Assembly (NCBI GenBank): GCA_903876615.1
Contig: CAIRAS010000411.1
Coordinates: 1-30,953, forward strand
DNA from: an uncultured Holophagaceae bacterium
Lineage (GTDB): Bacteria > Acidobacteriota > Holophagae > Holophagales > Holophagaceae
Direction: 5' to 3'
Length of the DNA: 30,953 nucleotides
Part shown: positions 3,723 to 30,837 of the stretch, piece by piece
How positions within the stretch are numbered: the first letter of the stretch is position 1
How the letters are laid out: each line of letters starts with the position of its first letter
The notes under the pieces: model-generated
Told to the model about the DNA's origin: nothing
The model's input: the letters and a program-made list of their open reading frames with translations, nothing else
The model's database searches: none
Program-made: the position numbers and the translations under genes

Positions 3723-4588
3723 GCGGGCACCCGCACGGCGAGAATCGCAATCCACTCGCCTTCAGTCAGCACCTTCTCGGGCCGGAAGCCCTGGGTGACC
3801 AGGCTCACCAGGGCCTCGTCCGTACGCTCCGCCAGGATGCCGCTGGCGATGAGCCAGCCCCCGGGCGCTGTGACCTCCGCCATGCGGGGCAGCAGCTCCT
3901 GGATGGTTACGAGCAGGATGTTGGCGAGCAGGCCCATGTAGGGGCCGGTCACCCGCGGATGGTCGAGGGTGCCAACGAAGCTCGCATAGGGGGTAACGCC
4001 CTTCAGCAGGTGCGCATTCAGCTCCATCAGCTCCTGCATGGCCGGGCCGCAGTCCGGGTCGATGTCGAAGGCTGTGAGGCCCTGTCCGCCCAGCAGGAAG
4101 GCCGCCAGCGACAGGATGCCCGTCCCCGCGCCGATGTCCAGGACCGGGCCCTGCAGGCGGCCGGCGTCAGCGAGCTCCTCCAGCAGGGTCATGCAGAGCC
4201 GCGTAGTCTCGTGGCCTCCGGTGCCGAAGGCCAGGCCCGGGTTCACCACCAGGTCCAGACGGTCCGCGGGTCCCGGCGTTGGCTCCCAGAGGGGACGTAC
4301 GTGGAACCGCGAACCCACCTCGAAGGCGCCGAAGCCCTCGCGGCTCTTGGCCAGCCAGTCCTCGTCGCCGAAGCGCTCGGCCGCCAACAGGCAGACGCCG
4401 GGAAAGGCCGCCAGGCCCCCGGTGTCCGGAGGCGCCAGGTCCGGCGGGAAGTAGGCATAGCAGGCCCGGGGCGGATCCGCCTCGCGGTAGAAGGCCGAGG
4501 AACCCACCGCCTCCAGCCAGGCGCAGAGGCCTTCCTCCTGGGGATCCGGCACGCCCAGTTTCCATCGCAGATGTATCGCGCTCACCAT
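3719..4588 (-). CDS. prmA: Ribosomal protein L11 methyltransferase (PrmA family)
   Basis: PrmA uses S-adenosylmethionine to methylate ribosomal protein L11 on lysines and the alpha-amino group. The 289-residue product has the family signature NPGLAFGTGGHETT (116-129), SAM motif I VLDIGAGTGILS (149-160), an acidic motif II segment AFDIDPDCG, and LLANILL near motif IV. In typical PrmA the first signature begins DPG; here it is NPG. The N-terminal L11-recognition region (about 1-100) is weakly recognisable. The start at 4588 has no strong Shine-Dalgarno but lies 20 bases after the sigma-54 gene stop, suggesting read-through or coupled expression. Other class I methyltransferases are less likely given the AFGTGGHETT signature. 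Confidence 0.9.
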   Translation of the reverse strand: MVSAIHLRWKLGVPDPQEEGLCAWLEAVGSSAFYREADPPRACYAYFPPDLAPPDTGGLAAFPGVCLLAAERFGDEDWLAKSREGFGAFEVGSRFHVRPLWEPTPGPADRLDLVVNPGLAFGTGGHETTRLCMTLLEELADAGRLQGPVLDIGAGTGILSLAAFLLGGQGLTAFDIDPDCGPAMQELMELNAHLLKGVTPYASFVGTLDHPRVTGPYMGLLANILLVTIQELLPRMAEVTAPGGWLIASGILAERTDEALVSLVTQGFRPEKVLTEGEWIAILAVRVPA

Positions 4589-4608
4589 GCGGAGATCTTA
4601 GCAGGAGG

Positions 4609-6033
4609 CTATTCCGCCTCCGCCTCGGGGGGATCCTCAAGGTCCAGGCGCTTCATCTTCTCGAGGAAGGTGGTGCGCTTGAGGCCCAGGAGATCCGCCG
4701 CGCGCTTCTTGTTGCCGCGGGTGATGGCGAGGCTCTGCAGCATCAAGGTCTTCTCCATGCCCGACACCACCTGGTTCAGGTCCAGGCCTTCTGGCGGCAG
4801 GTCCATGCCGAAGGCCGGGGCCGGTTCGCGGGGAGCGAAGGCTTCGGTGAACCGAAGCTCGGCCACAGGGCCCGGCTCCGTAGCCAAGTCGCCGCGGCGC
4901 TCGGCAAGGAAGGCGAAGTCCTCCCGGGTGAGCACGGGCCGCTTGTCGGACAGGACAATGGCCCGCTCGATGGCGTTCTCCAGCTGGCGGACATTCCCGG
5001 GCCAGGGCAGCGCCATGAGCAGCGGATCCACGCTGGGGTGCAGGGCCTTGGGGTAGAGTCCGTGCTCGCGGGCCTTCCGGTTCAGGAAGTGCTGGGCTAG
5101 GAAGGGCACCTCCTCCGGCCGGGCACGCAGGGGCGGCATGGTGATGGGCACCACCTCGAGCCGGTAGAAGAGGTCCTCCCGGAAGCTGCCGTCCTGCACC
5201 TTCTTCCACAGGTCCACGTTGGAGGCGGTCACCACCCGCACATCCACCTTGACCGGAGCGCCGCCACCGAGCGGCTGCACCTCGCGCTCCTGGAGCACCC
5301 GCAACAGGCGCACCTGGGCCGCCAGGGGCATGGTGCCGACCTCGTCGAGGAAGATGGTCCCGCCATGGGCCTCGCGGAACTTGCCCGGGGTGTCCTTGCG
5401 GGCATCCGTGAAGGCGCCCTTGTTGTAGCCGAACAGCTCCGACTCCAGCAGGTTCTCGGGAATGGACCCGCAGTGCACGGCCACGAAGGGCTGGCTCGCG
5501 TCAGCGCTCATGCGGTGGATGGCGCGGGCGATGACTTCCTTGCCCGTGCCGCTTTCGCCCAGGAGCAGGACCGTGGCCCGGGTGGCAGCGGCGCTGCGGG
5601 CCCGCGCCAGGACATCCTGCATGGCCGTGCTGGCGCCCACCAGCCCGAAGGCCAGGGCCTGCGAGGCACTCAGCTGAGTGGTGGGACTGGAACGGGGACG
5701 CAGGCCCGGCACCGGCGGCTCCGGTCCCAGCACCCCCCAGCGCACGGAACCCAGGGCGCCCCAGGCGGCCAGTGCCTTCGGTTCCAGGGCGGGTCCGTCG
5801 GCCTTCAGGGCGAGCAGGATGGGCAGGGCGCCCACCTCGGCCATCATGTGGTTCAGTTCCGGCGGGGGCAGGGGGCTCTTGACGCTGATCACCCAGAGGT
5901 CCACCTCCCGGGGCGCCAGCGCGGGCAGCGCGCCGCGATCCGCGGTGACCTCCCAGAGCGCAGCCCACCGATGCTCCAGCCCCCCGGTGTCGTCCCCGAG
6001 GGTGGACCAGTGCAGGCGGGGAAGCGGGGCCAT
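4609..6033 (-). CDS. Sigma-54-dependent transcriptional activator with degenerate receiver-like N-terminus
   Basis: A 474-residue bacterial enhancer-binding protein that would use ATP hydrolysis to open sigma-54 promoters. The AAA+ domain spans about 130-365: Walker A GESGTGKE (159-166), sigma-54 contact loop GAFTDA (206-211, canonical GAFTGA), and Walker B GGTIFLDE (224-231). The C-terminus has a Fis-type helix-turn-helix ([20 protein letters not shown]). Residues 1-115 resemble a receiver fold: [10 protein letters not shown] (45-54) aligns with the usual DLVLLDVRMP block, placing Ser50 where the phospho-Asp should be, and GALGSVRWG resembles the region before the conserved Lys. This receiver assignment is inference. 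GGAG lies three bases before the ATG at 6033. It heads the prmA-murI run and is divergent from the thioredoxin-fold gene. Confidence 0.92.
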
Positions 6034-13286: not shown

Positions 13287-14297
13287 CTAGCCCCTCAGCA
13301 GTCGCTCTTCCGCCAGCCGCAGCAGGTGCTCGCTCGCCAGGACGCCGTCCTGGTGGTTCATGCGCTGGAAGTGTTCGCAGAGGTGCCGCAGGGTGCGGGG
13401 GATCGCCGAGGCGAACAGGGCCTTCTTCCGGTGCACGATCTGGTGCCCATAGGTGCCGAGGATCTTGAGGTTCCGTTGGATGGCGCTGAGGGTCAGCTCC
13501 TCGAGCAGGGCCTCGTGGTTCCAGCCCAGCTCCTGCTGGAGAGGACGCACGAGGGCCCGGCCGGCCTCCGGGGACCAGTCCCAGTAGCCGTCGTAGAGGA
13601 TGCTGGCCAGGTCGTAGGTGGCTGCGCCGCGGCGAGCATCCTGGAAGTCGATGACCACCAACCGGTCCCCGTGCACCATGAGGTTGCGCACGTGGAAGTC
13701 CCGGTGGGCGAAGAAGCGTGCCCGGGTCTCCAGGCTGGCGTGGGCCTCCTCCATCAGGCGGTCCAGCCAGCGGGGGGGCTCCTTCTGCAGGAAGTCCTGG
13801 AAGAAGTTCGTCCGGCAGTAGTCCCACTCGAACTGGAACTTGGCCTGGTCGAAGGCGCGCTGCATGAAGAAGGCATGGCCCGGCGCCCCCAGGGTCAGGG
13901 GTCCCGCCAGGGTGGCCAGCAGCCAGCCCGCCCGCTCGGCCCAGGCCAGCTCTTCCTCGGGATGCTCGACGAGTCGGCGCTCCAGGGTGGTGTCGCCCAG
14001 GTCCTCCACCAGGAGGCAGCGGTCCTCGTCGTCGGTGTGGATGATGGTGGGCACCCGCAGCAGGGGATCCAGGTAGGCCTGGATGGCCCGGAACTCGAAG
14101 TAGCTGTCGTCAGTCTTCTCCGGAGTATCCACCGGATGCAGCACCACCATGGCGGTGCCCAGCTGCTCATGGGCCACCCGGATGTACTGCCGGCCGCCCG
14201 CATCCCCAACCAGGGGCCGGGGGTCCGACACACTCCAGCGATCCAGGGCACGAGGCAGGCGGGCATCCATCCCCTCAGGGTACTCCCGCCGGGGCAT
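13287..14297 (-). CDS. amgK: Aminoglycoside-phosphotransferase-fold kinase, AmgK-like (MurNAc/GlcNAc anomeric kinase)
   Basis: A protein of about 336 residues with the APH kinase fold: nucleotide-loop region PLVGDAGGRQYIRV (29-41), hinge LLVEDLGDTTLERRL, catalytic loop HRDFHVRNL with Asp200, and metal-binding VIDFQDA (Asp217). AmgK phosphorylates the anomeric carbon of N-acetylmuramic acid (and GlcNAc) in a salvage route that bypasses de novo UDP-MurNAc synthesis. The assignment rests on fold motifs plus the immediately preceding MurU-like gene, the same pairing as in Pseudomonas. The start is uncertain: ATG at 14297 avoids overlap with the upstream gene; ATG at 14270 is also plausible; neither has an ideal ribosome site. 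Another small-molecule kinase of this fold remains possible. Confidence 0.8.
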   Translation of the reverse strand: MPRREYPEGMDARLPRALDRWSVSDPRPLVGDAGGRQYIRVAHEQLGTAMVVLHPVDTPEKTDDSYFEFRAIQAYLDPLLRVPTIIHTDDEDRCLLVEDLGDTTLERRLVEHPEEELAWAERAGWLLATLAGPLTLGAPGHAFFMQRAFDQAKFQFEWDYCRTNFFQDFLQKEPPRWLDRLMEEAHASLETRARFFAHRDFHVRNLMVHGDRLVVIDFQDARRGAATYDLASILYDGYWDWSPEAGRALVRPLQQELGWNHEALLEELTLSAIQRNLKILGTYGHQIVHRKKALFASAIPRTLRHLCEHFQRMNHQDGVLASEHLLRLAEERLLRG

Positions 14298-14341
14298 TCT
14301 GGCACGGAGGTCGCCTCGGCAGGTTAGCCCTGGCAGCGGCC

Positions 14342-15172
14342 CTACAACCCCAGGCGCACCTGCTTCCCGTGCTCCTCGAACCACAGGGCCTCGCAGTCCG
14401 TGAGGGCGGGCGGGGGCGCGGCGCCGGGACCCAGGACACAGCGGGTGAGCCGCCCCGAAGGAACCGCAGCCGGGTGCACGTAGCAGCCGGGCAGCCGGCC
14501 TTCCTGCTCCGGCGCCAGCTCCGCGGCGGCCTGGATGAGCCCCTCAGCCGTGCCCACCTCCTGCCAGGGAAAGGGTTCAACCACCACCCCCAGGTGCAGG
14601 GGGAGGCGGGGACGCAGCTCCGTGACTTCGCTGGGACCCTCGGGCAGCAGGGCCAGGGCCTCGGGCGACCAGACTGCGGCGCCGGTGAAGTGGTAGGGGC
14701 CCTGGGGTCCCACGACGCCCCGCGGCAGGACCCGGTCATCCGCATCCAGCCAGACGGGGTTCCAGCCTCCGCCGGGGTGGGGGATGAGCAGCCAGCTCAG
14801 GGTCGCGCCGACCGCGCGGTGCCGTGCCCGCAGCCGGGCGAAGGGCACGCCCTCGGCCCAGATATCGGCATTCCACGTCAGCAGCTCGGATGCCACGCGA
14901 CCACGGGCGTGCAGGAGCCCCCCGGCTCCGCCCAGCAGCGCGGGTTCCTCGCAGACCTCGATGCCGACCGCCACTTCCCGGAGCCGGTCCGCGTGGTGGT
15001 GCGCGTTGCAGGCGAGGCGCCGCGCCCCGGCCTGGCGCAGCTGGTCGGCACCCCACTGGAGCAGGGGGCGCCCCTGCAGGGTCCAGGCGGGCTTGGGCAG
15101 GCACTGGCTGAGGGCGCCCATGCGCAGGCCCAGGCCCGCCGCCAGCAGGAAACCGTCGATGGGCTCAGTCAT
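14342..15172 (-). CDS. murU: Nucleotidyltransferase, MurU-like (MurNAc-1-phosphate uridylyltransferase)
   Basis: A 276-residue sugar-nucleotide pyrophosphorylase-type enzyme. The NTP-binding signature LAAGLGLRMGALSQ is followed by LPKPAW with the conserved Lys27, and the metal-binding Asp lies in LLTWNADIW; EEPALLGGAGGLLHARG is the usual substrate-loop region. MurU couples MurNAc-1-phosphate to UTP to form UDP-MurNAc in peptidoglycan recycling. Naming as MurU depends on pairing with the AmgK-like gene just downstream (45-bp gap with the chosen start); another NDP-sugar product such as mannose-1-phosphate guanylyltransferase cannot be excluded. The protein is somewhat longer than Pseudomonas MurU and has a C-terminal extension of about 50 residues. 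Its ATG overlaps the stop of the CorC-like gene by eight bases. Confidence 0.8.
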   Translation of the reverse strand: MTEPIDGFLLAAGLGLRMGALSQCLPKPAWTLQGRPLLQWGADQLRQAGARRLACNAHHHADRLREVAVGIEVCEEPALLGGAGGLLHARGRVASELLTWNADIWAEGVPFARLRARHRAVGATLSWLLIPHPGGGWNPVWLDADDRVLPRGVVGPQGPYHFTGAAVWSPEALALLPEGPSEVTELRPRLPLHLGVVVEPFPWQEVGTAEGLIQAAAELAPEQEGRLPGCYVHPAAVPSGRLTRCVLGPGAAPPPALTDCEALWFEEHGKQVRLGL

Positions 15173-18501: not shown

Positions 18502-20007
18502 TCAGCGCGGGGGGATGGCCAAGGTGATCTTCTGGCTCCCATTCGGGGACTGGATGAAGAGCAACAGGGTGCGGCCTCCGGCCTTTTTCACCTGGGCGTT
18601 GAACTCCGCCAGGTTGTTCACGGGCTGGCGGCCCACTTCGGTGATGACCATGCCCTGCGCCAGACCCCGGTTGGCCGCGGGCGAGCGAGGATCCACCGTG
18701 GTGACCACCACTCCCTTCAGGCGATTCTTCACGTCCAGAGATTCGACGTTGAAGCCGTAGCTCTTCTCCAGGTTCAGGCTCTTCGGATCGCCCTGGGGCT
18801 TCTGGCCCTGCTCGTCCTCGGGCTCTTCACCAGCCTCGCGGCGGCGCTGGTCCTCCAGGGCCTTCCGGTCGCCCAGGGTGACCGTCAGGGTGAGGGACTT
18901 CCCGTCCCGCCAGAGGGCAAGCTTGAGGGTTTCTCCCGCCCGGCGGCTGGAGACCATGGCCACCAGCTCGTCCGGGTTGTGCACGGGCTGGCCGTCCACC
19001 GCCGTGAGCACATCCAGGCGCTGTACGCCGGCCTTGTCCGCCGCCTGGCCCTTCTCGACCGTGCTGACCACCACGCCTTCCTTGGCCCCCAGGGCGTCCT
19101 GGTAGGCCTGATCCAGCTCCATGGGGCCGATGCCCAGGTAGCCCCGGCTCACGGGCTTGCCGCTGCGCAGATCCTTCAGGATGCGGTTGACCTGGCTGAT
19201 GGGCACCGCGAAGCCGATGTTCTGGCCAGCGGGATTGATGGCCGTGTTGATGCCGATCACCTCGCCGCGCAGGTTGAGCAGCGGGCCGCCGGAGTTGCCG
19301 CGGTTGATGGCGGCGTCCGTCTGCAGGAAAGAGCTCACGCCCGTGTCGAGCTTGCGGCCCTTGGCGCTGATGATGCCCTGGGTGACGGTGTGCTCCAGAC
19401 CGAAGGGGTTGCCGATGGCCACCACCCACTCGCCGATGCGCAGCGAGTCCGAGTCGCCGAGCTTGGCGAAGGGCAGGTGCGCCCCGTCGATCTTGATGAG
19501 GGCGATGTCCAGCTCCTTGTCCTTGCCCAACACCGTGGCCTTGTAGGCCTTTCCATCGTTGGTCTTCACTTCAAGGGAATTGTCCGAGCCCCCGCCCATG
19601 CTGGCGATGACGTGGTAGTTCGTGAGGATCTCGCCCTGGGGGCTGATGATCACGCCGGAGCCACCGGACACGGAGCGCTGCTCATCCTCGCCCCCCCGGG
19701 GGGCGCGCCGCTGCTGGGGCCCACCGGGGCCGAAGAAGAAGTCGAAGAAATCCTGCCCGCCCACCTGGGGGTGGTCGAAGGAGCGGCCCTTCACAAAACT
19801 TGTGTTGGTGATGGCCACCACCGTGGGGTTCAGTTTTTCGGCCACATCCGCAATGGGCGGCAGCCGGTCCAACCCCTTGGCGTCCACCACCACGGGTTTC
19901 TCTTCCTGGGCCGTGGCGACCCAGCCATGGCTCAACCCCATCCCAAGGGCCATGCACCCGGCCGCGAAGGCCGACAACCCCAGAACCTGCTTCAACTGAC
20001 GATTCAT
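18502..20007 (-). CDS. htrA: Do/HtrA-family periplasmic serine endopeptidase (DegP/DegQ-like)
   Basis: A 501-residue envelope protease that degrades or refolds misfolded periplasmic proteins. A signal sequence or anchor lies at about 1-33 (MNRQLKQVLGLSAFAAGCMA...). The trypsin-like domain has the triad His132 (TNYHVIAS), Asp167 (LDIALIKID) and Ser239 (NRGNSGGPL). PDZ1 begins about 285 (VSRGYLGIGPMELD) and PDZ2 about 420, separated by a charged linker rich in Glu, Gln and Lys (about 372-400). A Gly/Arg-rich insert (GPGGPQQRRAPRGGEDEQ) before the protease core matches the LA-loop region. The ATG at 20007 has GAGGAG four bases upstream; a further in-frame start at 20037 would spoil the signal peptide. 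It is divergent from tRNA-His and separated from the next gene by a strong hairpin. Confidence 0.95.
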   Translation of the reverse strand: MNRQLKQVLGLSAFAAGCMALGMGLSHGWVATAQEEKPVVVDAKGLDRLPPIADVAEKLNPTVVAITNTSFVKGRSFDHPQVGGQDFFDFFFGPGGPQQRRAPRGGEDEQRSVSGGSGVIISPQGEILTNYHVIASMGGGSDNSLEVKTNDGKAYKATVLGKDKELDIALIKIDGAHLPFAKLGDSDSLRIGEWVVAIGNPFGLEHTVTQGIISAKGRKLDTGVSSFLQTDAAINRGNSGGPLLNLRGEVIGINTAINPAGQNIGFAVPISQVNRILKDLRSGKPVSRGYLGIGPMELDQAYQDALGAKEGVVVSTVEKGQAADKAGVQRLDVLTAVDGQPVHNPDELVAMVSSRRAGETLKLALWRDGKSLTLTVTLGDRKALEDQRRREAGEEPEDEQGQKPQGDPKSLNLEKSYGFNVESLDVKNRLKGVVVTTVDPRSPAANRGLAQGMVITEVGRQPVNNLAEFNAQVKKAGGRTLLLFIQSPNGSQKITLAIPPR

Positions 20008-20114
20008 GGAACTCCTCACTGGCCGGACCCCCGGCAAGCCATTCGATGACAGCAGTCCCCCGAAGGTTCCCGCTGGCCTTCCCGAATCGCCCAGGTTAAT
20101 CTGGATGGTCCAAC

Positions 20115-20222: not shown

Positions 20223-20427
20223 CCTATTCTGGCCAGGATGGCGGGCAAGGCTTGCCCTTTCCCCTTGTCACACAAGCATCTGGCCGCCAAAAACCGTCAC
20301 AACCCACCCCTTTGTCATCTTTTTGTCATCAAAACCACAGAGCCTTCTGCCACCATCCAGTCGACACGATTGAGGCACACAACAACACGCCTGGGATCGC
20401 CAGCCGCCATCCCTAGGAGTTCCCTTG
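20223..20427. other. Intergenic leader of the hybrid kinase gene
   Basis: About 200 bp with no gene. It holds TGTCA-containing repeats (see the Pho-box-like entry), a C/A-rich stretch, and the Shine-Dalgarno AGGAG (20415-20419) of the kinase. No convincing -10 hexamer could be placed after the repeats. Confidence 0.5.
20313..20330 (+). promoter_or_regulatory. Pho-box-like direct repeat (TGTCATC x2, 11-bp period)
   Basis: TGTCATC occurs at 20313-20319 and again at 20324-20330, exactly 11 bp apart with a T-rich spacer. The PhoB binding box has two TGTCA half-sites with the same 11-bp period and an A/T spacer. Additional GTCA elements lie upstream at 20267 and 20296. The downstream gene has a PhnD-type periplasmic domain, which makes an OmpR/PhoB-family regulator site plausible; binding is inference. 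Confidence 0.45.
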
Positions 20428-23028
20428 ATGAAACCGTTCCTTCATCCTTCCTGGCCCACCGGCCGCCGCCTCACGGTGGGGACCACCCTCCCGGGGGGAA
20501 GATTGCTGCTTCGTGGAATGCTCCTGCTTGCAGCACTCCTGGCCCTACCCCTCGCGGCCGAAGCGCCGCTCCGTTTTGGCGTGCTGGCCTTCCGCCCCAA
20601 GGCGCAGGCCCTGGCGCAGTGGCAACCCCTGGCCGATAGCCTTGAACGGGCCCTAGGCCAGAAGGTCGAGCTGCGCGCCTACAGCTACCCCGAGCTGGAC
20701 AGCGCCATGGCCGCCAAGGCCGTGGACGTGGTCCTCACCAACCCGGGGCACTTCGTCGTCCTCAGCCGCCGGTATCACCTGTCGGCCCCCCTCGTCACCC
20801 TGGTTGGCCAAGAAGGACCGTACGCCCCGGCCTCCTTCGGCGGCCTGATCTTCACCCGGGCCGATGCCGCGGGCATCGACACCCTCACCGACCTGGCGGG
20901 AAAGCGCATCGCCACCGCGGATACCCAGTCCCTCGGCGGCTATCAGATGCAGGCCTTCGAGCTGCTGGAGGGGGGGGTGCCACTCCCCCCCCGGGACCGG
21001 CTCCTCCTCACCGGCATGCCCCACGACAAGGCTTTCGAGGCGGTCCTCGCGGGCCAGGCCGAGGTGGGCTTCGTCCGCAGCGGGGTGCTGGAGGCCATGA
21101 CCCGGGAGGGCCGCCTGGATCCGGCCCTTGTGAAGGTCCTCCACCGCCAGGACCTCCTCGACTTCCCTTATATCAGCTCCACGCCCCTCTACCCTGAGTG
21201 GCCCGTGGCGGTGACTCCCCAGGTAGAAGATCGGCTCGCCCGGAGGCTGGCCATCGCGCTGCTGTCCCTGCCAGCCGAGAGCCCCGCAGCCCGCAGTGCG
21301 GGCATCCATGGCTTCACGGTCCCGGCCAACTACGGTGGCGTGGAGACCGTCCTGCGGCGCCTCCGCCTCCCACCCTTCGATGCGGCCCCCGACTTTACCC
21401 TCGCCGACCTGTGGCAGAGGCATCTCCCGGAAACCGCGGCCTTTGCGGTGCTGCTGCTGCTCCTGGCGGCGACAAGCGCTGGATTCGCCCTCCAGAACCG
21501 CCGGGTCCGCCAGGCCCGGCAGCACTTCGCCACCCTTTTCGAGCACTCGCCGGAACCCATGTGGATCATCGCCGACGGCCGCTTCATCGACTGCAACCCC
21601 GCGGGTGTCCGCATCTTCGGCCATACCGACAAGGCCTCCCTGCTGGCCCGCCATCCAAACGATCTGTCGCCCCCGCACCAGCCCGACGGCGAGGCCTCCC
21701 GGAGCAAGGCCCGGCGCATGCTGGGCGCCGTGGCAGAGGGGGAGCCCCAGCGCTTCGAGTGGGTCTACCTCCGCGCTGACGGCAGCCCGTTCAGCGCCCT
21801 CCTCAGCCTCATGTCGACCACCCTCGAGGGGCGTCCGGTCGGTCTGGCCGTGGGCCATGACATCTCGGGACTCAAGCGGGCCGAGGAGGATCGGCGGGTG
21901 CTCGAAGCCCAGTTCCAGCAAGCCATGAAGCTGGAGAGCCTGGGCAGCCTGGCCGGCGGCGTCGCCCACAACATGAACAACGTGCTGGGCGCAATCCTCG
22001 GCCTGGCCTCGAGCCTGCGAGCCCAGACCGAGCCCCTCTCGGCCACCGCCAAGAGCCTCGACACCATCGTCAACGCCTGCCTTCGGGGCCGCGGCGTGGT
22101 GAAGGGCCTGCTCTACTTCGCCCACAAGGACCTCCAGGAGGAGCGGGGCATCCAGCTCAACGACCTGGTCCGCGAGATGGCCCTCTTGCTGGGGCAGACC
22201 ACGCTCAACCGGGTCCAGCTGCAGCTGGAGCTGGACGAGAGCCTCGGCGAGCTCCGCGGCGATGCCGGCGCGGTGAGCCATGCCCTCATGAACCTCTGCG
22301 TCAACGCCATGGACGCCATGCCTGCGGGCGGGACCATCTGGATCCAGACACGCTGCAGCCCGGATGGTGGCGCGGTGCTGGCCGTGCGCGACTCCGGCGA
22401 GGGGATGCCCCCAGAGGTGCTGGCCAAGGCCATGGAACCCTTCTTCACCACCAAGCCCCACGGCAAGGGCACCGGGCTTGGCCTGTCCATGATCTACGGC
22501 ACCATGAAGGCCCATGACGGCAGGTTCGAGCTGAAGAGCCAGTTGGGCCTCGGGACCGAGGCCATCCTCACCTTCCCCGCCACCCGCGTGGCCTGCGTCA
22601 GGCCCGCCCCGGGCATCGCTGCCGGCGTTGTGCCCGCCGGAGTCCCCTCCCTGAGCATCCTCCTGGTGGATGACGACGACCTGATCCGCGAGTCGGTCAC
22701 CGAGGTCCTGCAGTTCCTGGGCCACCAACCCTTCAGCGCCCCCGGCGGGCTGGAGGCCCTCCACTTGCTGGAGGATGGCCTCTCGGTGGACCTGGTGATC
22801 CTCGACATGAACATGCCGATCATGAATGGCGCCGAGACCCTGCCGAGGCTTCTGGCCCTGCGCCCGGGTCTGCCGGTTCTGATGGCCACGGGCTACAGCG
22901 ACGAAGACATCATCCCGCTGCTTGTGGGCCGGCCCAGCGTCCAAAGCCTCCGGAAGCCCTTCAGCATCCAGGAGCTCTCGGATCGGCTGGCGGGCTTGCG
23001 GATCGAGGCTGCGGAGCCTGCGGGCTGA
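20428..23028 (+). CDS. Hybrid histidine kinase with PhnD/TtrS-type periplasmic sensor, PAS, kinase and receiver
   Basis: An 866-residue membrane sensor. Order: signal segment (about 29-45), a periplasmic binding domain of the phosphate/phosphonate-binding PhnD type (about 46-330; LRFGVLAFRPKAQAL, VDVVLTNPGHFVVL), one transmembrane helix (about 338-357), PAS (about 372-480), HisKA with His514 in GGVAHNMNNVL, HATPase (NLCVNAMDAMPAGG, DSGEGMP, FFTTKPHGKGTGLGLS), and a C-terminal receiver (LLVDDDDL, phospho-acceptor Asp793 in LDMNMP, LRKPFS). The same sensor type occurs in the tetrathionate kinase TtrS, so the ligand may be an oxyanion or sulfur compound rather than a phosphonate. The ATG at 20428 follows AGGAG by eight bases; a TTG at 20425 is less likely. 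No transporter or DNA-binding regulator is adjacent, so it is an orphan. Confidence 0.93.
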   Translation: MKPFLHPSWPTGRRLTVGTTLPGGRLLLRGMLLLAALLALPLAAEAPLRFGVLAFRPKAQALAQWQPLADSLERALGQKVELRAYSYPELDSAMAAKAVDVVLTNPGHFVVLSRRYHLSAPLVTLVGQEGPYAPASFGGLIFTRADAAGIDTLTDLAGKRIATADTQSLGGYQMQAFELLEGGVPLPPRDRLLLTGMPHDKAFEAVLAGQAEVGFVRSGVLEAMTREGRLDPALVKVLHRQDLLDFPYISSTPLYPEWPVAVTPQVEDRLARRLAIALLSLPAESPAARSAGIHGFTVPANYGGVETVLRRLRLPPFDAAPDFTLADLWQRHLPETAAFAVLLLLLAATSAGFALQNRRVRQARQHFATLFEHSPEPMWIIADGRFIDCNPAGVRIFGHTDKASLLARHPNDLSPPHQPDGEASRSKARRMLGAVAEGEPQRFEWVYLRADGSPFSALLSLMSTTLEGRPVGLAVGHDISGLKRAEEDRRVLEAQFQQAMKLESLGSLAGGVAHNMNNVLGAILGLASSLRAQTEPLSATAKSLDTIVNACLRGRGVVKGLLYFAHKDLQEERGIQLNDLVREMALLLGQTTLNRVQLQLELDESLGELRGDAGAVSHALMNLCVNAMDAMPAGGTIWIQTRCSPDGGAVLAVRDSGEGMPPEVLAKAMEPFFTTKPHGKGTGLGLSMIYGTMKAHDGRFELKSQLGLGTEAILTFPATRVACVRPAPGIAAGVVPAGVPSLSILLVDDDDLIRESVTEVLQFLGHQPFSAPGGLEALHLLEDGLSVDLVILDMNMPIMNGAETLPRLLALRPGLPVLMATGYSDEDIIPLLVGRPSVQSLRKPFSIQELSDRLAGLRIEAAEPAG

Positions 23029-23049: not shown

Positions 23050-26000
23050 CTAGTTCCAGGTGTATTTCGTATTGGTGGGGTAGTCGTGCGTCTGGCTGTG
23101 GCAGGAGAGGGCGCAGCCGCCTTGTCCCTGAGTGGCCCTCACCGTGTAGATCATGGCTCCGGAGGCCGGCGTGGCGCCGCCCCCAAACTTGATGGTGTCG
23201 CTGGAGAGCTGGTCTGTGACCGTGCGGACGGCCGTGGTGTCCAGATACTTGAAGTGGTTGACCACCCCGGTGCGGTTGTTGGTGCTGGTGGACATGTCGT
23301 GGCAGTGGTCGCAGGTCTGGGTGTGATTGCCCGGACTGACATGCCGGCCGGTGGCATCGTTGTATTGGGTGGAATTGGCTGTAGATATGGCCTTGTGGCA
23401 GGCGATGCAGTAGGTATCTGCATTCACCGTGAGGGTGCCAGTCGGCCAGGCAGGAGTTACCTGCCCGCCGTGGCAGCTGACGTTGGAGCAGGTGAGGGGT
23501 GGCAAGGGGGAGGGGCCGTTAAAAGCCGCGCCCAGCCCAGGCTGTGCGTTGAAAGTGGGGTGGATACTCACAGAGGCGGGTCCCGAAATGATGGGAGCGC
23601 CCACCCGCTTGCTGGCGTTGGAATAGTGGGTGTTGGTCGAGTCGCCTGGCAGGGAATCTAAGTGGCAGGCGACACAGGCAGGATAAGGCGAGGTCGGGTA
23701 GGGCGTGGCCGCGGGCCCTGTGATCGGGGTCCCGCGGGTGAAGGTCAGCAGGGAGAGGTGCTTGAGGTGAGCCCCCTTGAGGCTCGGCCAGGCCGCCCCC
23801 GAGGGCCCCTGGGTGGTAAAGGCCGTGCCCACATGACAGGACAGGCAGGTTCCAGCGGTCTTGCCCGCCGCCAGGGGAGAGCCCAGGGTGTGGCAGATCG
23901 TGCACACGGGACCAGACTTGAAGCTGGTTCCGCTCTCGTCATGGCAGCCCAGGCACTCGGTATTGAACTGGGTCAGGGTGGTGGTCTGGTGGTGGTTGCC
24001 CGCACTGCTCAGCCCTGCGCTGTAGAAGGGCACGGGGTGAGCCGCCGCGCCCTTGGGGGCATCCCAGTGGTTGGTGGCAGGCACATGGCTGAGGCTGTGG
24101 CAGGTCAGTGCGCAGCCGCCATCACCTTCCGGGGTTCCTGTCGTGATGGCGTAGGTTCCCGCTCCCGTAATGGGGTAGGTGGCATCGTTGGTCTTGAACT
24201 TGATCGTGGTACTGGGGAGCTGGTCAGCCGGGGAGCCCGTGGCCACCCCACTGACCGCGGTGGTTTCCAGGTAGGCGAAGTGGCGGGCCGTGCTCATGTC
24301 GTGGCAGAGCGTGCAGCCCGCGCCCGGGGCGACAGCCCCAGCAGCCAGGGCGTGGGTGCCCCAGGCGTGGCGCCCGGTGGCGTCGTTGAACTGGGCGGCG
24401 AGGCTGCCCCCGTTGATGGCGTGGCAGGCCCCGCATTGGGTCGCACTGTTGAGGGTGCCGGACTGCCAGCTGGGGGTGGTCTGGCCCCCGTGACAGCTCA
24501 CTGTTGAGCAGGTGAGCGCCGTGGGATTAAAGGAAGCCGTGCCGCCGCTCTGGGCGTTGTAGGTGGCAGAAATCTGGACGGTACCCGGACCCGTGGGAGC
24601 CGCAAGCCGGGCATTGGCGTTCCGGTAGTGGATCGAGCTGCCGGTGCTGGCGTTGGTGTGGCAGGTATCGCAGGTCAGCACGGTCGGCAGGGCCATGTGC
24701 TTGGCGTGCTTGCCACTGAGGCTGGGGAACGCTGCACCGGTGGGACCGGCGGGCAGCCCCGAAGCGCCCACATGGCAGGAGAGGCAGGTGCCCGTCCCCG
24801 TGGCTACCGCCGTGGGATTCGCCAGGGTGTGGCAGACGTTGCAGGAGGGCGCCAGCGCGTTGGGCGAGGTGCCCGAATACGCGTGGCAGAGGCTGCAGTC
24901 CTTGGTGAAGGTGTCCTGAGTGGCCGTGAAATGACCGTTGCCCTGGGTGTCCGTATTGCCCCCGAGGAACGAGACCGGGTGCGGGGGGCCGTTATAGGTC
25001 CAGGTCTCCACCGTGGCCACGTGGATGTGGGAATGGCAGGTCAGCGCGCAGCCGCCATTGCCCTGGGTGCCAGCATTGACTGAGTAAGTGCCAGGACTGG
25101 TAAGGGCCGCGGGGTCGAAGACAATGGTGTGGCTGGGCAGCTGATCCGCGGGAGTTGCGCTGGGGTTGAGACCGTCCACGGCCGGGGTGTTGAGGTACTT
25201 GAAGTGGGCCAGGGCCCCCAGGGTGCCGTTGTTCATGTTGTGGCAGGTGGTGCAGGCGATGGTGCTGCCCGCAGCCGTGACATTGTGGGTACCCATGCTG
25301 TGGCGGCCATAGGCGTCGTTGTACTGGGTGGCGGTGCCGGCCTGGACCGTCGTGGCATGGCAGGAGGTGCACTGGGTGCTGGCGTTGAGGCTGCCCGACT
25401 GCCAGTTGGGGGTCGACTGGCCCCCGTGGCAGCTCACGTTGCTGCAGGTGAGGAGGGAGGGGTTGAAGGCGATGCTGCCACCGGTCTTGGCGACGAACGC
25501 GGGATCGATGGACACGGTCGCCGGCCCTGTGGGGACCGCGATCCGGGCATCAGCGTTGAGGTAGTGGGTGGCGCTACCGGTTCCTGCGTTGGTGTGGCAG
25601 GAGTCGCAGGTCAGCTGGGTCGCCAAGCCCAGGTGCTTGGCGTGGGCGCCGGCCTTGCTGGGGAAGCTGGTGCCGCCCGGCCCGCCCACCAGCCCGCTGG
25701 CGCCTTCATGGCAGGACTGGCAGGTGCCGGTGCCATACCCATCAGACACAGGGTTCCCGCGGCTGTGGCAGACGCTGCAGAGGGGCGCGGAGGGGTTGGG
25801 AGAGGTCCCCGAATAGGTGTGGCAGATGCTGCAGTCTGAGCTGAAGGTGGTGGCCGTGACCTGGAAGTGCTCATTGAGCTGGCTGTCGATCTGCCCCGCC
25901 CCGAAGGGGATGGGGTGGGGCGACCCACTGGCATTCCAGGTCTCGTAGGTGGGGGTGTGGAGGTGGGTGTGGCAGGTCAGGGTGCAGCCGCCGTTGCCCT

Positions 26001-29000
26001 GGGTGTTGGTGGTCACGGTATAGGTCTTGAGGCCCGTCACGGTTGCATCAAATTCAATCGTACCGCTGGGCCGCTGGTCTGACGGCGAGCCCGTGGCCAC
26101 TCCGTCCACCTCGGGAGTGTTCAGATACTTGAAGTGGGCCAGCGCCCCAGGCGATCCGTTGGCCATGTTATGGCAGGTGATGCAGGTGTGGGCGGCGTGG
26201 GTGCCGATGCTGTGGCGGCCGAAGGCGTTGTTGTACTGGGGGTCCCCGGCGGTGAGGCTCACGGCATGGCACTTGGTGCAGTCCGCAGCGCTGTTGATGC
26301 TGCCGGACGCGGTCCAGGCCGGGGTGGTCTGGCCGCCGTGGCAGCTCACATTGCTGCAGGTCAAGGCGCTTGGCGTGAACGCCGCGGTGCCCGATTTGGC
26401 GTTGAAGGTGGCCTGGATGCTCACCGGCGCCGGTCCGGCGGGGATTCCTGTCCGGGCATTGGCGTTGGTGTAGTGGTTGGCGGTACCTGCTCCGCTACCG
26501 GCGTGGCAGCTGTCGCAGGTCAGGGTCGTGGGCAGGCCCAGGTGCCTGGCGTGCGCCCCGGCGATGCTCGGGAAGGAGGCTCCCCCGGGTCCCGTCGGCA
26601 GGCCTGCCGTGCCCGTGTGGCAGGACAGGCAGGTCCCCGCCCCACTGGCCGTCAGCGTCGGATCCGCCGCCTTGTGGCAGACGCTGCACAGCGGCGCCGT
26701 TGCCATCGGGCTCGTTCCCGAAACGCCATGGCAGCTGGAACAGTCGCTCGTGAAGGTGCTGGCGCTGGCGGAGGTGTGCGCCCCCCCCAGGAAGGGGACC
26801 GTATGGTTCGGCTGGCTCGGACCGTTCACATGGCAGGCCACGGCATTCGCCGAGGCCGAGAAGCAGCTCGGGGCGGTGACGTCCGGGGCGGTGCGGCCCT
26901 TGGTGTTGTCATGGCACAGCGCGCAGGCCACGCTGCGGTTTCCGGCATCCCGGTGGGACGCCACGTAGCTCGGGAACGCCCCGGGAGCCTGATACCAGCG
27001 ATCGGAGTGGGCCCTGGCCTGGCTGTGGCAGCTGCTGCACTTGGTCGTGGCTGCCGCCCCACCTTCAAAGCCCGTGGAGCCAGCGTTGCCATGGCAGGAC
27101 TGGCAGTAGGCCAGGTCCCGCTTGGCGGCGATGCCGTGGAAGGCCGCGCTGGTCGCCGTGGTCCAGACCGCGCCCAGGGCATGCGGCGTCGCTTCGGTCC
27201 CATGGCACAGGGTGTTGTTGAAGCAGCCTGGCGCCGTGCCCGCCGGGGCGGGCGTGGCGGGATGCCCCGCCGGGTTGGCCACCGCGCCCGGGTAGTGGCA
27301 CTGGGCGCAGACGGGCGCGTTCGTGGCATCCGTCGTGGCATGGTTGGAGCCCGTGGCGTTGTGCCAGGGCTTCGCCGGGTGCGGCGCCGCCACCCCATGA
27401 CAGGTCGTGCAGGCCTTGGTGGTGCCATCGGAGGCGGTGAGGCCCGAGGCGAAGGCCGTCCCATGGCAGGCCTGGCAGGAGGCCAGCCCGCCGCCCGAGG
27501 AACCCTGGGCCAGCTTCGCCCGGAGGCCGTGGCTACCCGCCAGGGCATAGCCCGGCTGGGTGTTGTGGTGACAGGCGGCCGTGAAGCAGGAGGGCTCGCT
27601 GAAGGGTCCACCCGCCAGCGTGGCGCCGTGACAGGCCTTGCAGCCGTTGAGTCCCGCCAGAGCGCTGCCGGGATGGCTCGCGATCCAGCCCGTGGGATGG
27701 ACCCCGCCGTTCCCGGTCCAAGTAAACGCCGCGTGGGTCTTGCCGTGGCAGGTGACGGTGCAGGTCTTGGCCGCGGCACTGTAGGTGCCACCGCTCAGCG
27801 CGATGGTCTCCCCCGCTGCGCCTTCCATGGCGGCGGTTCCCAGGCTCGTCAGGTGGCCCAGTGCGCCGCTGCTTCCGTTCGCCATGCTGTGGCACTCGGT
27901 GCAGAGCAGCTTCGCCGGCGAGTTCATGTGCAGCGCGTGGAACCCGGAATAGGCGCTGTTGTTCTCGGGCACTCCCGGGGCCGTCCCCAGCGCATGGCAC
28001 TTGGCGCAGTCGGTGGCCGAGCTGAGGCTGCCGGTCGCAGTCCAGGCTGGGGTGGTCTGGCCGCCGTGGCAGCTCACGTTGCTGCAGGTCAGGGTCGCCG
28101 GGTTGAAGGTCGCCGGGCCCGCATTCCCGTTGTAGGAGTTCAGGAAGGCCACGAGGCCCGGACCCACTCGCAGGCTGTCCTTGCCCGCCCGGCCGTTGGC
28201 GTGGTCGTAGTGGGTCTGGGTACCGGTGTCTGCATTCTGGTGGCAGGTCGAGCAGGCTCCCGCCCCGCCTGTCAGGGCGTTGTGCTTCCCGTGGGCTCCG
28301 GCCACGTTCGGGAAGCTGGCGCCCGTGGGCGGCTTCCCGTGACAGGAGGCGCAGTTCGCCATGACCAGCGGCGAGCCTGCCTGATGACAGGCACTGCAGA
28401 GTGGCGCCGAGGTCACCGGCGAGGCCCCGGACACGGCGTGGCAGCTCGCGCAGGAGCCGTTGAAACCCGTCTGGGTGATGCCGGTATGCCCACTGCCAAC
28501 GAACGGAACCAGGTGGGAGGCCAGGGTGGCCCCGTGGCAGAGGGTGTTGTTGGTGCATCCGGGGGCCGTGCCCGCCGGGGCGGGTGTCGCGGGGTGCCCC
28601 GCGGGGTTCGCGGCCGCTCCGGGGAAGTGGCACTGCGCACAGATGGCGGCGTTCACCGGATTGGTGGTGGCGTGGTTCGATCCGGCGAGGTCATGCCAGG
28701 GCTTGGCCGGATGCGGCGCGGCCACGCCGTGGCAGCTGGCACAGGCTTTGGCACCCCCCCCTCCGGAAAAATCCTTCCCATGGCAGAGCTGGCAGGAGAC
28801 CAGGCTCCCGCCGTCCGTCCCCGAGGCCAGCTTGGCCCGCGAGCCGTGAATGGCCACCGTGCCCCACGTAGGAATGGTCCTGTGATGGCAGAGGGTGGAC
28901 GTGCAGGTCGGAACATTGCTGCCCGCGGTGGCGACGGAAAGCTGATGGCACTTGGTGCAGGCATCCAGCCCGGCGATGGCGCTGCCGGGATGGCTGCCGA

Positions 29001-29190
29001 TCCAACCGGCGGGGTGGTAGTTCTGGGTAAGGTTCGCCGTCGGGGTGCTCGCACTGCCCCCGCCACCGCCACAACCGAGGAGGGCCAGCGAAAGCGTGAA
29101 GGCGAGACCAAGTAGGCCAACAACCCCTGAAAAGCTTTTCCAGGCAAGGAGGTCAATGGTCAATTTTCGGCAAACCTGTGTTGGGGGCAT
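23050..29190 (-). CDS. Giant multiheme c-type cytochrome lipoprotein (CxxxxCH/CxxCH family, 41 CxxCH)
   Basis: The protein of about 2046 residues carries 41 CxxCH heme-binding motifs by my count, plus seven CxxxxCH, five CxxxCH, two Cx5CH and one Cx8CH. A lipobox LALLGC (Cys40) followed by a Gly-run indicates an outer-membrane lipoprotein, so it probably acts in extracellular or cross-envelope electron transfer, as in Geobacter-type metal respiration. Sequence between motifs is Ser/Thr/Gly/Ala/Pro-rich and repeats: two N-terminal modules and five larger modules (see repeat entries). ATG 29190 is chosen because a promoter -10 lies at 29230-29235 and GAGG precedes it by eight bases; a TTG at 29229 would lie in the promoter. 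No porin or assembly gene is adjacent. The gene ends shortly after the last CALSCH motif, with YTWN. It is convergent with the hybrid kinase. Confidence 0.93.
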   Translation of the reverse strand: MPPTQVCRKLTIDLLAWKSFSGVVGLLGLAFTLSLALLGCGGGGGSASTPTANLTQNYHPAGWIGSHPGSAIAGLDACTKCHQLSVATAGSNVPTCTSTLCHHRTIPTWGTVAIHGSRAKLASGTDGGSLVSCQLCHGKDFSGGGGAKACASCHGVAAPHPAKPWHDLAGSNHATTNPVNAAICAQCHFPGAAANPAGHPATPAPAGTAPGCTNNTLCHGATLASHLVPFVGSGHTGITQTGFNGSCASCHAVSGASPVTSAPLCSACHQAGSPLVMANCASCHGKPPTGASFPNVAGAHGKHNALTGGAGACSTCHQNADTGTQTHYDHANGRAGKDSLRVGPGLVAFLNSYNGNAGPATFNPATLTCSNVSCHGGQTTPAWTATGSLSSATDCAKCHALGTAPGVPENNSAYSGFHALHMNSPAKLLCTECHSMANGSSGALGHLTSLGTAAMEGAAGETIALSGGTYSAAAKTCTVTCHGKTHAAFTWTGNGGVHPTGWIASHPGSALAGLNGCKACHGATLAGGPFSEPSCFTAACHHNTQPGYALAGSHGLRAKLAQGSSGGGLASCQACHGTAFASGLTASDGTTKACTTCHGVAAPHPAKPWHNATGSNHATTDATNAPVCAQCHYPGAVANPAGHPATPAPAGTAPGCFNNTLCHGTEATPHALGAVWTTATSAAFHGIAAKRDLAYCQSCHGNAGSTGFEGGAAATTKCSSCHSQARAHSDRWYQAPGAFPSYVASHRDAGNRSVACALCHDNTKGRTAPDVTAPSCFSASANAVACHVNGPSQPNHTVPFLGGAHTSASASTFTSDCSSCHGVSGTSPMATAPLCSVCHKAADPTLTASGAGTCLSCHTGTAGLPTGPGGASFPSIAGAHARHLGLPTTLTCDSCHAGSGAGTANHYTNANARTGIPAGPAPVSIQATFNAKSGTAAFTPSALTCSNVSCHGGQTTPAWTASGSINSAADCTKCHAVSLTAGDPQYNNAFGRHSIGTHAAHTCITCHNMANGSPGALAHFKYLNTPEVDGVATGSPSDQRPSGTIEFDATVTGLKTYTVTTNTQGNGGCTLTCHTHLHTPTYETWNASGSPHPIPFGAGQIDSQLNEHFQVTATTFSSDCSICHTYSGTSPNPSAPLCSVCHSRGNPVSDGYGTGTCQSCHEGASGLVGGPGGTSFPSKAGAHAKHLGLATQLTCDSCHTNAGTGSATHYLNADARIAVPTGPATVSIDPAFVAKTGGSIAFNPSLLTCSNVSCHGGQSTPNWQSGSLNASTQCTSCHATTVQAGTATQYNDAYGRHSMGTHNVTAAGSTIACTTCHNMNNGTLGALAHFKYLNTPAVDGLNPSATPADQLPSHTIVFDPAALTSPGTYSVNAGTQGNGGCALTCHSHIHVATVETWTYNGPPHPVSFLGGNTDTQGNGHFTATQDTFTKDCSLCHAYSGTSPNALAPSCNVCHTLANPTAVATGTGTCLSCHVGASGLPAGPTGAAFPSLSGKHAKHMALPTVLTCDTCHTNASTGSSIHYRNANARLAAPTGPGTVQISATYNAQSGGTASFNPTALTCSTVSCHGGQTTPSWQSGTLNSATQCGACHAINGGSLAAQFNDATGRHAWGTHALAAGAVAPGAGCTLCHDMSTARHFAYLETTAVSGVATGSPADQLPSTTIKFKTNDATYPITGAGTYAITTGTPEGDGGCALTCHSLSHVPATNHWDAPKGAAAHPVPFYSAGLSSAGNHHQTTTLTQFNTECLGCHDESGTSFKSGPVCTICHTLGSPLAAGKTAGTCLSCHVGTAFTTQGPSGAAWPSLKGAHLKHLSLLTFTRGTPITGPAATPYPTSPYPACVACHLDSLPGDSTNTHYSNASKRVGAPIISGPASVSIHPTFNAQPGLGAAFNGPSPLPPLTCSNVSCHGGQVTPAWPTGTLTVNADTYCIACHKAISTANSTQYNDATGRHVSPGNHTQTCDHCHDMSTSTNNRTGVVNHFKYLDTTAVRTVTDQLSSDTIKFGGGATPASGAMIYTVRATQGQGGCALSCHSQTHDYPTNTKYTWN
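23090..28455 (-). repeat. Module B, five protein-level repeats in the cytochrome
   Basis: Approximate copies: B1 27740-28455, B2 25965-26745, B3 25030-25840, B4 24095-24900, B5 23090-23955. Each follows the pattern CxxCHxxSGTSP, CSVCH, CLSCHxG, GAHxKHL, CDSCH, CSNVSCHGGQTTPxW, CxxCHA, CxxCHxM, HFKYL and CALTCHSxxH. B1 lacks the HFKYL block and has a shorter middle. B2 to B5 are spaced about 910-1020 bp apart at the CSNVSCH anchor, so the array probably grew by duplication. Confidence 0.85.
27199..29016 (-). repeat. Module A, two protein-level repeats in the cytochrome
   Basis: Copy A1 is at 28531-29016 and copy A2 at 27199-27699. Each runs from HPxGWIxSHPGSAxAGL through CxxxxCHH, a CHGVAAPHPAKPWH block and NPAGHPATPAPAGTAPGC to NNTLCHG. 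The copies share most residues but the DNA has diverged. Module B1 lies between them. Confidence 0.85.
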
Positions 29191-29559: not shown

Positions 29560-30837
29560 ATGCTGCGCCGAACCATCGATGTCGACGAACGCCTGCCCAT
29601 CCTGCAGACCCTGCCCCTGAGCCTCCAGCATCTCTTCGCGATGTTCGGGGCCACCGTGCTGGTGCCCTTCCTGTTCAAGGTGAACCCGGCTACCTGTCTG
29701 CTGATGAACGGCGTCGGCACCCTCATCTACCTGGCCGTGGCCAAGGGCCGCATCCCCGCCTATCTCGGCTCGAGCTTTGCCTTCCTCTCCCCCGTCTTTG
29801 CCGTGCTGGCCTCGGGTCTCAGCTACTCCGCGGCCCAGGGCGGCTTCATCGTCTTTGGCCTCATCTTCATCCTGCTCTCCCAGGTGGTCAGGGTTGCGGG
29901 CACCCGCTGGATCGAGGTCATCTTCCCGCCCGCGGCCATGGGTGCCATCGTGGCCATCATCGGCCTGGAGCTGGCCCCTGTCGCCACCAACATGGCAGGC
30001 CTGACCGCCAGCAGCACGCCCCTGGGCATGTCGGTGAAGCTGGCGCTCATCGTGTCCCTCTCCACCCTCGCCGTGACCATCCTGGCCTCCGTGCTGCTCC
30101 GCGGGTTCATGGCTGTCATCCCCGTCCTGCTGGGCGTCATCGCCGGCTACGTGCTCTCCCTGGGCCTGGGCGTCGTGGACTTCGAGGCGGTCCGCCTGGC
30201 GCCCTGGTTCCAGGTGCCCACGCTCTACGCGCCAGTCTTCAACGTCCAGGCCATCCTCATCATCCTCCCCGCGACCCTCGTGGTCCTGGCCGAGCATGTG
30301 GGGCACCTGGTGGTGACCGGCAACATCGTCGGCAAGGACCTCGTGAAGGATCCGGGGCTGCACCGCTCCCTGCTGGGTGACGGCATCTCCAACGTGCTCT
30401 CCGGCCTCGTGGGCGCCACCCCCAACACCACCTACGGCGAGAACATCGGCGTCATGGCCATCACCAAGGTCTACAGCGTGTGGGTCATCGCAGGTACCGC
30501 CATCATCGCCATCGTGGTGTCCTTCTCCGGCAAGCTCGCGGCCATCATCCGCAGCATCCCGGTGCCGGTCATGGGGGGCGTCTGCATGCTGCTCTTCGGC
30601 GTCATCGCCGCCGCTGGCATCCGCATGCTGATCGAAAAGAAGGTGGACTACACCAAGTCCCGCAACCTGATCCTCACCTCCGTCGTGCTCATCAGCGGCA
30701 TCAGCGGCGCCGCCGTCAAGCTGGGTACCGTCGAGCTGCGCGGCATGGCCCTCGGCACCGTCGTCGCCATCTGCCTCGCCCTGCTCTTCTGGTCCTTCGA
30801 CAAGCTGGGCATCAGCACCGACGGCGGCGCCCACTAA
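29560..30837 (+). CDS. uraA: Uracil permease, NCS2 family (UraA)
   Basis: A 425-residue, probably 14-helix inner-membrane uracil:proton symporter. It follows E. coli UraA closely: LPLSLQHLFAMFGATVLVP, GRIPAYLGSSFAFLSP, FPPAAMGAIVAIIGLELA, LAEHVGHLVVTGNIVGKDL and TPNTTYGENIGVMAITKVYS. The two glutamates that bind uracil and couple protons are present at Glu245 and Glu294, with the same 49-residue spacing as in E. coli. The ATG at 29560 follows TGAGGA closely. It imports uracil for pyrimidine salvage. It stands alone, with tRNA-Arg downstream, and is possibly controlled by the hairpin in its leader. Confidence 0.96.
   Translation: MLRRTIDVDERLPILQTLPLSLQHLFAMFGATVLVPFLFKVNPATCLLMNGVGTLIYLAVAKGRIPAYLGSSFAFLSPVFAVLASGLSYSAAQGGFIVFGLIFILLSQVVRVAGTRWIEVIFPPAAMGAIVAIIGLELAPVATNMAGLTASSTPLGMSVKLALIVSLSTLAVTILASVLLRGFMAVIPVLLGVIAGYVLSLGLGVVDFEAVRLAPWFQVPTLYAPVFNVQAILIILPATLVVLAEHVGHLVVTGNIVGKDLVKDPGLHRSLLGDGISNVLSGLVGATPNTTYGENIGVMAITKVYSVWVIAGTAIIAIVVSFSGKLAAIIRSIPVPVMGGVCMLLFGVIAAAGIRMLIEKKVDYTKSRNLILTSVVLISGISGAAVKLGTVELRGMALGTVVAICLALLFWSFDKLGISTDGGAH

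Follow-up and report, generated by a model that had tools for sequence, protein, structure and literature searches.

Closest described systems

In Geobacter, the conduits of the OmcB type, ExtABCD and ExtEFG (PMC6148476) carry electrons through a beta-barrel associated with a small cytochrome and a lipoprotein cytochrome. Conduits of the MtrB and ExtB/E types have been reported in Holophaga (PMC7399161), as has the expression of extEFG homologues (PMC11748539), and putative novel porin-cytochrome complexes together with outer-surface multiheme cytochromes were described in Geothrix metagenome-assembled genomes (PMC6344600), where parts of the present system may already have been counted. Here, we analysed a contig of 30,953 nucleotides from an uncultured Holophagaceae bacterium (Acidobacteriota; CAIRAS010000411.1, referred to below, at its full length, as the window), which encodes a 2046-residue, probably membrane-anchored cytochrome with 56 candidate heme sites, hereafter the giant. 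The reading that we favour, with a probability of about 0.55, is that the giant is an outer-membrane lipoprotein that relays electrons at the outer surface, as the arm of a porin-cytochrome conduit; its gene would have become separated from that of the porin, and octaheme duplication would have made the chain longer.

Compared by gene layout, relatives of the giant share with the Geobacter conduits an operon of barrel, small cytochrome and lipoprotein cytochrome, whereas the lipoprotein of the window has no such partners beside it and greatly exceeds ExtC and ExtD in size (5 and 12 hemes; PMC6148476). Close relatives among the large multiheme cytochromes of Burkholderiales and Anaerolineales gain or lose heme-bearing stretches (PMC7399161), as they do here, but the step in the giant's family is one fixed module of eight sites, with distinct end modules. 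Very high heme numbers are known from a Methanoperedenaceae protein with 113 motifs (PMC7082337) and from another acidobacterium, Paludibaculum, with 112 (PMC11495043); compared by count, these proteins have about twice the motifs of the giant, which rules out record size as a novelty.

Proteins of TIGR01904 (Pfam counterpart PF09698, 'Geobacter CxxxxCH...CXXCH motif') present, like the giant, CxxxxCH and CxxCH motifs in succession, but in the giant this pair sits in a fixed, repeated octaheme module and in a member of the Acidobacteriota. A preliminary description of this DNA, made from its letters alone, had likened the protein to Geobacter-type proteins. The domain is indeed present (TIGR01904, 72.3 bits versus a cut-off of 27, in four stretches); the named relatives belong to uncultured Holophagaceae and to Geothrix, not to Geobacter, and the nearest genome in the comparison has 26% of the sequence words sampled from the window. 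PF09698 is absent from the Pfam matches of the protein, for which the Pfam c3 and c7 models give whole-protein scores above cut-off. The MtrC/OmcA-like model PF22113 reaches a whole-protein score of 69.1 against a cut-off of 30, yet no single stretch passes. The giant, with its 56 sites, is not a decaheme protein and lacks the combination of about ten hemes and an MtrB-type porin that marks MtrC/OmcA; a separate MtrC/OmcA-like gene is found in a conduit-like operon of the genus (see below). A single-sequence search of the PDB at E 0.001 retrieved no relative of the giant and revealed no sequence relation to the nanowire cytochromes OmcS, OmcE and OmcZ.

A probable lipoprotein with 56 candidate heme sites

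The length and the 41 CxxCH motifs given by the preliminary description are exact for the minus-strand open reading frame, which starts with ATG. This heme inventory was incomplete, since the protein also contains 7 CxxxxCH, 5 CxxxCH, 2 Cx5CH and 1 Cx9CH (residues 776-787); a count limited to CxxCH thus overlooks 15 of the 56 candidates, about one quarter. Taken together, the motifs use 112 of the 114 cysteines, the two exceptions being Cys7, within the signal region, and Cys40, the cysteine of the lipobox, whereas shuffled versions of the protein contain on average 0.4 CxxCH and at most 4 (1000 shuffles). In the 63 closest proteins (P0001-P0063), the only cysteines left unpaired beyond residue 66 are the two of the Cx9CH motif. 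Because cysteines are almost never unpaired, we take the variant-spaced motifs to be heme-binding as well, an argument that is strong but indirect.

For comparison, we used a family set of 68 proteins, including that of the window, drawn from 7986 scored candidates of about 1125-3580 residues, a length range in which shorter forms are under-seen (a form of about 800 residues exists at L014). The lipobox already noticed in the preliminary description, with Cys40 as its cysteine, was called by pattern matching: a PROSITE-like pattern matches it and 58 of the 61 set proteins that are not N-terminally cut, whereas a stricter pattern requiring a small residue at position -2 matches 19 of the 61 but not the protein of the window. 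Cys40 is common to P0004, P0005, P0013, P0015, P0016 and P0017. Comparison with the nearest ortholog fragment (L006), based on 1136 aligned codons, gives a ratio of non-synonymous to synonymous substitution rates (dN/dS) of 0.20 and shows that the gene evolves under purifying selection, as far as this alignment extends. In the aligned part, all 56 cysteines and 65 of 68 histidines are kept.

Module architecture

The protein can be read as A(6 sites)-B(8)-A'(6)-insert(4; spacings 2,2,2,9)-B-B-B-B, with the spacing code 2-4-2-2-2-5 in module A and 2-2-2-2-4-2-2-3 in module B. The 'two plus five' internal repeats of the preliminary description correspond precisely to the two A modules (61% identical) and the five B modules (42-60% identical to one another), the repeats being visible in the DNA too. 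At such identities, the B modules of the window look like old duplicates. The Cx9CH motif of the insert is kept in all 12 other examined sequences that carry this insert.

Bis-His ligation of eight hemes needs eight histidines outside the motifs. The alignment of 280 B modules, in which some rows are near-duplicates and the motif residues, though not the other histidines, are invariant by construction, contains nine non-motif histidine columns conserved at 99% or more for eight hemes; the 76 A modules have seven such columns above 90% for six hemes. With enough conserved non-motif histidines for every heme, the conservation pattern suggests electron relay and not an open catalytic heme. This also bears on the idea that the giant is a terminal reductase or oxidase with its active site in one module and the rest as wiring. 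The terminal and penultimate B modules do form distinct conserved classes, as one module bearing an active site might, but nine conserved columns for eight hemes leave no obvious open-site heme and no solved enzyme is related by sequence, so that we regard such an enzyme as highly improbable.

In two of the porin-linked relatives described below (L034:8001-11498 and L078:7113-10616), the eighth site of the B-like module is Cx7CH or Cx9CH, not CxxxCH; the eighth heme position of B-like modules thus appears to have a variable spacing across relatives.

A ladder of whole octaheme modules

The preliminary description had proposed that the chain was lengthened by module duplication and that module number should be compared between related genomes. 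Lengthening by duplication is supported: 55 of the 68 proteins parse into whole modules without remainder and differ from each other by entire octaheme units. The A-B series comprises 35 A-B3, 3 A-B4, 3 A-B5, 6 A-B6 and 1 A-B8 proteins, forming a ladder of 30, 38, 46, 54 and 70 sites, and the A-B-A'-insert series includes 2 proteins ending in B4 (one being that of the window), 3 in B5 and 2 in B6, with 56, 64 and 72 sites. The 13 non-parsing proteins correspond to seven N-terminally cut sequences, one with an extra CH, four with motif strings like that of genome G009 (see below) and one distant sequence. No module total is given for two genomes in which the gene is split over two contigs (L009/L011 and L007/L010), on account of the gap between them. 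P0005 and P0016, whose six shared B modules are 93-99% identical, are set apart by a single interior B module, and in P0001 the identity between modules B4 and B5 reaches 94%.

In a midpoint-rooted tree of 113 of the 280 B modules, from 24 chosen proteins, the terminal modules of different proteins largely fall into one group by position, and so do the penultimate ones, whereas interior modules group mostly by lineage; the first B module of the A-B-A' type forms a separate group. Exceptions to the grouping by position are the modules of P0064 and module B2 of P0020, which falls inside the penultimate group. Because end modules group by position and interior ones by lineage, growth seems to occur in the middle of the chain, by amplification of interior modules, the ends being kept.

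Length variation could also be neutral drift or repeat mis-assembly, and thus functionally meaningless: the modules are tandem DNA repeats, two of them 94% identical in P0001, many of the sequences come from metagenome assemblies and, in several cases, the gene runs off the end of its contig. Against this, an A-B6 form is present in a single-contig genome (G029), the window modules are only 42-60% identical, which makes their collapse unlikely, and the dN/dS of 0.20 and the whole-module parse of 55 of the 68 proteins point the same way. We therefore consider this explanation improbable.

We found no description of an octaheme ladder with distinct end modules in the open-licence PMC literature, nor, in the same literature, of the porin-linked relatives or of the relation between first module and conduit cytochrome presented below. 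The homologues form a natural series, from 30 to 72 sites, in which the chemistry stays nearly constant while the length changes, and some of the relatives lie inside a porin operon. Such a series would make it possible to relate current or Fe(III) reduction to the length of the chain, and so to ask whether long single-protein heme chains serve for reach or for storage; the repeated octaheme units also offer material for structural work.

Relation to porin-cytochrome operons

In three of the 47 genomes of the genus (G009, G034 and G038), a related A-containing lipoprotein is encoded immediately downstream of genes for a beta-barrel and a pentaheme cytochrome. These relatives have 1165, 1121 (cut by the contig end) and 1167 residues, respectively, and their motif string begins with A-222?-.... 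In G009, the trio adjoins the same permease gene as the giant does in the window. The barrel protein, of about 460 residues, matches no Pfam family, and its structural model from G009 is confident, with 22 long strands (predicted local distance difference test score, pLDDT, 83.6; predicted template modelling score, pTM, 0.75); the best PDB matches of this model are outer-membrane porins and pilus ushers, with template modelling scores (TM-scores) of 0.3-0.6. The barrel family is present in 40 of the 47 genomes, including eight of the nine that carry the giant; the ninth, G045, is 71% complete. An MtrB-type porin (PF11854), initially considered as the partner, was dropped in favour of this unnamed barrel, having been found in one of 21 genomes of the genus, on a small contig of G010.

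An operon common in the genus (L036:7568-14145) encodes this unnamed barrel, the pentaheme cytochrome, a small hexaheme cytochrome, an MtrC/OmcA-like protein with 10 CxxCH and a small helix-hairpin-helix protein. The barrel, pentaheme and small hexaheme genes occur together in all seven giant carriers opened and in all four other genomes opened, and the MtrC/OmcA-like gene comes directly next in five of these seven carriers. Sequence homology links module A of the giant to the small hexaheme cytochrome (A1, 33% identity, E 5e-18; A2, 37%, E 1e-27). The simplest reading of these sequence relationships is that A is a conduit-side module and that the protein of the window lineage came to be encoded apart from the porin and was lengthened. 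More tentatively, and with the odds somewhat against it in this full form, the small cytochrome of the conduit would have been fused to an octaheme relay block, producing a single-chain, membrane-anchored wire whose length is tuned in eight-heme steps (30-72 sites) as interior blocks are copied and separate docking and terminal blocks retained, and in which the CxxxCH, Cx5CH and Cx9CH motifs bind heme.

The heme loading, surface location and docking of the giant are inferred. All 56 sites would carry heme, and the N-terminal, lipid-anchored A module would lie near the exit of the conduit, receiving electrons from a porin and a pentaheme protein that the genus-wide operon would provide in trans. 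Electrons would then pass outward along the bis-His octaheme B modules to end acceptors such as Fe(III) oxides, humics, electrodes or partner cells. Duplication of interior B modules would change both reach and electron capacity, by eight hemes per step, whereas the roles at the docking end (first module) and at the distal end (last two B modules) would stay fixed. The giant probably serves to transfer electrons from the cell to minerals or other external acceptors.

Several observations weigh against a relay arm of a conduit. No porin lies beside the giant among the scanned neighbours of the window, so that the lack of an adjacent porin-cytochrome partner, as stated in the preliminary description, is confirmed; its suggestion of a free-standing protein is weak, because three of the 47 genomes have porin-linked relatives and 40 have the barrel family. 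The presence of the conduit in the window's own strain is assumed from its kin, and in the two carriers nearest to the window type (G043 and G047) it is a second hexaheme gene, not the MtrC-like gene, that comes directly next. The giant is, furthermore, dispensable in the genus, because the protease and permease genes that flank its site have no cytochrome between them in some giant-less genomes: among nine permease regions opened in such genomes, three (G003, G026 and G039) show a distance of about 2.2 kb between the two genes, and the intervening frames of at least 100 residues all lack CxxCH (in the remaining six, the protease was not found in the stretch examined). A lipobox-like start is present in two of three pentaheme proteins, and the lipobox pattern fits 24 of 120 hexaheme homologues, that of L036 not being among them; these patterns thus assign neither partner to a side of the membrane, and an arrangement with a soluble periplasmic pentaheme protein and a small hexaheme lipoprotein was not borne out by them. 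Finally, the model of the tandem B3-B4-B5 (957 residues, 39-row alignment) is unusable for heme spacing (mean pLDDT 38.2, pTM 0.20), and the giant has no sequence relative in the PDB.

Two other explanations were weighed. The giant could be an outer-membrane lipoprotein facing the periplasm and bridging it to the porin. The lipobox alone is silent on the leaflet, no porin is adjacent and the sides of the partners are unsettled, all of which would suit such a bridge, but with up to 72 sites the chain seems rather long to fit in the periplasm, and we find this orientation distinctly unlikely. The giant could also act as a capacitor storing tens of electrons at the surface, its module number being selected for capacity and no through-path being needed. 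Capacitor roles have been proposed for large multiheme cytochromes (PMC7399161, PMC11495043), and the heme inventory would be the same as for a wire, with a capacity rising in steps of eight. The largely position-specific last two modules suggest a direction, and relatives lie in porin operons; neither excludes storage, yet both make a pure capacitor rather unlikely in our view.

Genomic neighbourhood

Coordinates of the giant, its modules and the neighbouring genes are listed in Table 1. The genes of the window lie in the order protease, kinase, giant and divergent permease; G047 has these four genes too, and in other genomes the giant stays beside either the protease or the permease; the permease adjoins the giant or a relative in L008, L010, L011, L034 and L069. 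From the match tables, the giant or a piece of it is present in nine of the 47 genomes (G001, G016, G028, G029, G036, G042, G043, G045 and G047), G028 having a fragment beside the kinase as its only copy; a fragment in G035 was left undecided.

Table 1. Features of the window (positions 1 to 30,953).
Feature	Position	Strand	Basis
Multiheme cytochrome with lipobox, 2046 aa, 56 candidate heme sites	23050..29190	-	ATG at 29190, motif counts, TIGR01904, Pfam
Lipoprotein signal peptide (residues 1-40), lipobox LALLG/C, Cys40	29071..29190	-	pattern match
Module A1 (residues 56-222), 6 sites, spacings 2-4-2-2-2-5	28525..29025	-	
Module B1 (residues 223-494), 8 sites, spacings 2-2-2-2-4-2-2-3	27709..28524	-	
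Module A2 = A' (residues 495-670), 6 sites	27181..27708	-	
Insert after A2 (residues 671-789), 3 CxxCH + 1 Cx9CH (776-787)	26824..27180	-	
Module B2, interior class, 8 sites	25924..26823	-	
Module B3, interior class, 8 sites	24988..25923	-	
Module B4, penultimate class, 8 sites	24046..24987	-	
Module B5, terminal class, 8 sites	23053..24045	-	
Trypsin-like/PDZ (HtrA-type) protease, slot marker	18502..20037	-	domain scan, synteny
Hybrid histidine kinase with phosphonate-binding-type domain, PAS and receiver; convergent	20425..23028	+	domain scan
Xanthine/uracil permease, divergent, slot marker	29560..30837	+	PF00860

The kinase was considered as a regulator of the giant. With the 20 best candidates scored per genome, it has near full-length matches at 85-86% in four of the 47 genomes, a 275-residue piece in a fifth and weaker matches (45%) in others. 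The regulator hypothesis was dropped because few genomes match and giants occur without an adjacent kinase in G029 and G042; the kinase is probably not part of the cytochrome system.

A plus-strand open reading frame of 993 residues across the cytochrome gene was judged to be a GC-rich shadow frame. Plus-strand frames at 2931-6033, which have no Pfam match and lie opposite minus-strand genes for a racemase, PrmA and a sigma-54 activator, are probably shadows as well. A promoter-like match at 29257-29230 is at about chance level (1 found versus 0.5 expected). At 13287-15172, the window encodes an APH-fold phosphotransferase adjoining a MobA-like nucleotidyltransferase; several genomes of the genus share this order. 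The pair resembles those of sugar-nucleotide recycling.

A second locus (L027:8784-14646; also L028, L029, L031, L035, L070 and L076) encodes a paralogous A-B3 cytochrome with 30 sites. Its neighbours, as identified by Pfam on the copy of G003, are a monoheme cytochrome c, a DUF5777 beta-barrel, and a Reg_prop sensor kinase with a response regulator, and in G018 (L032) and G007 (L033) the locus contains a shorter gene with 13 CxxCH. This locus possibly corresponds to another barrel-cytochrome system.

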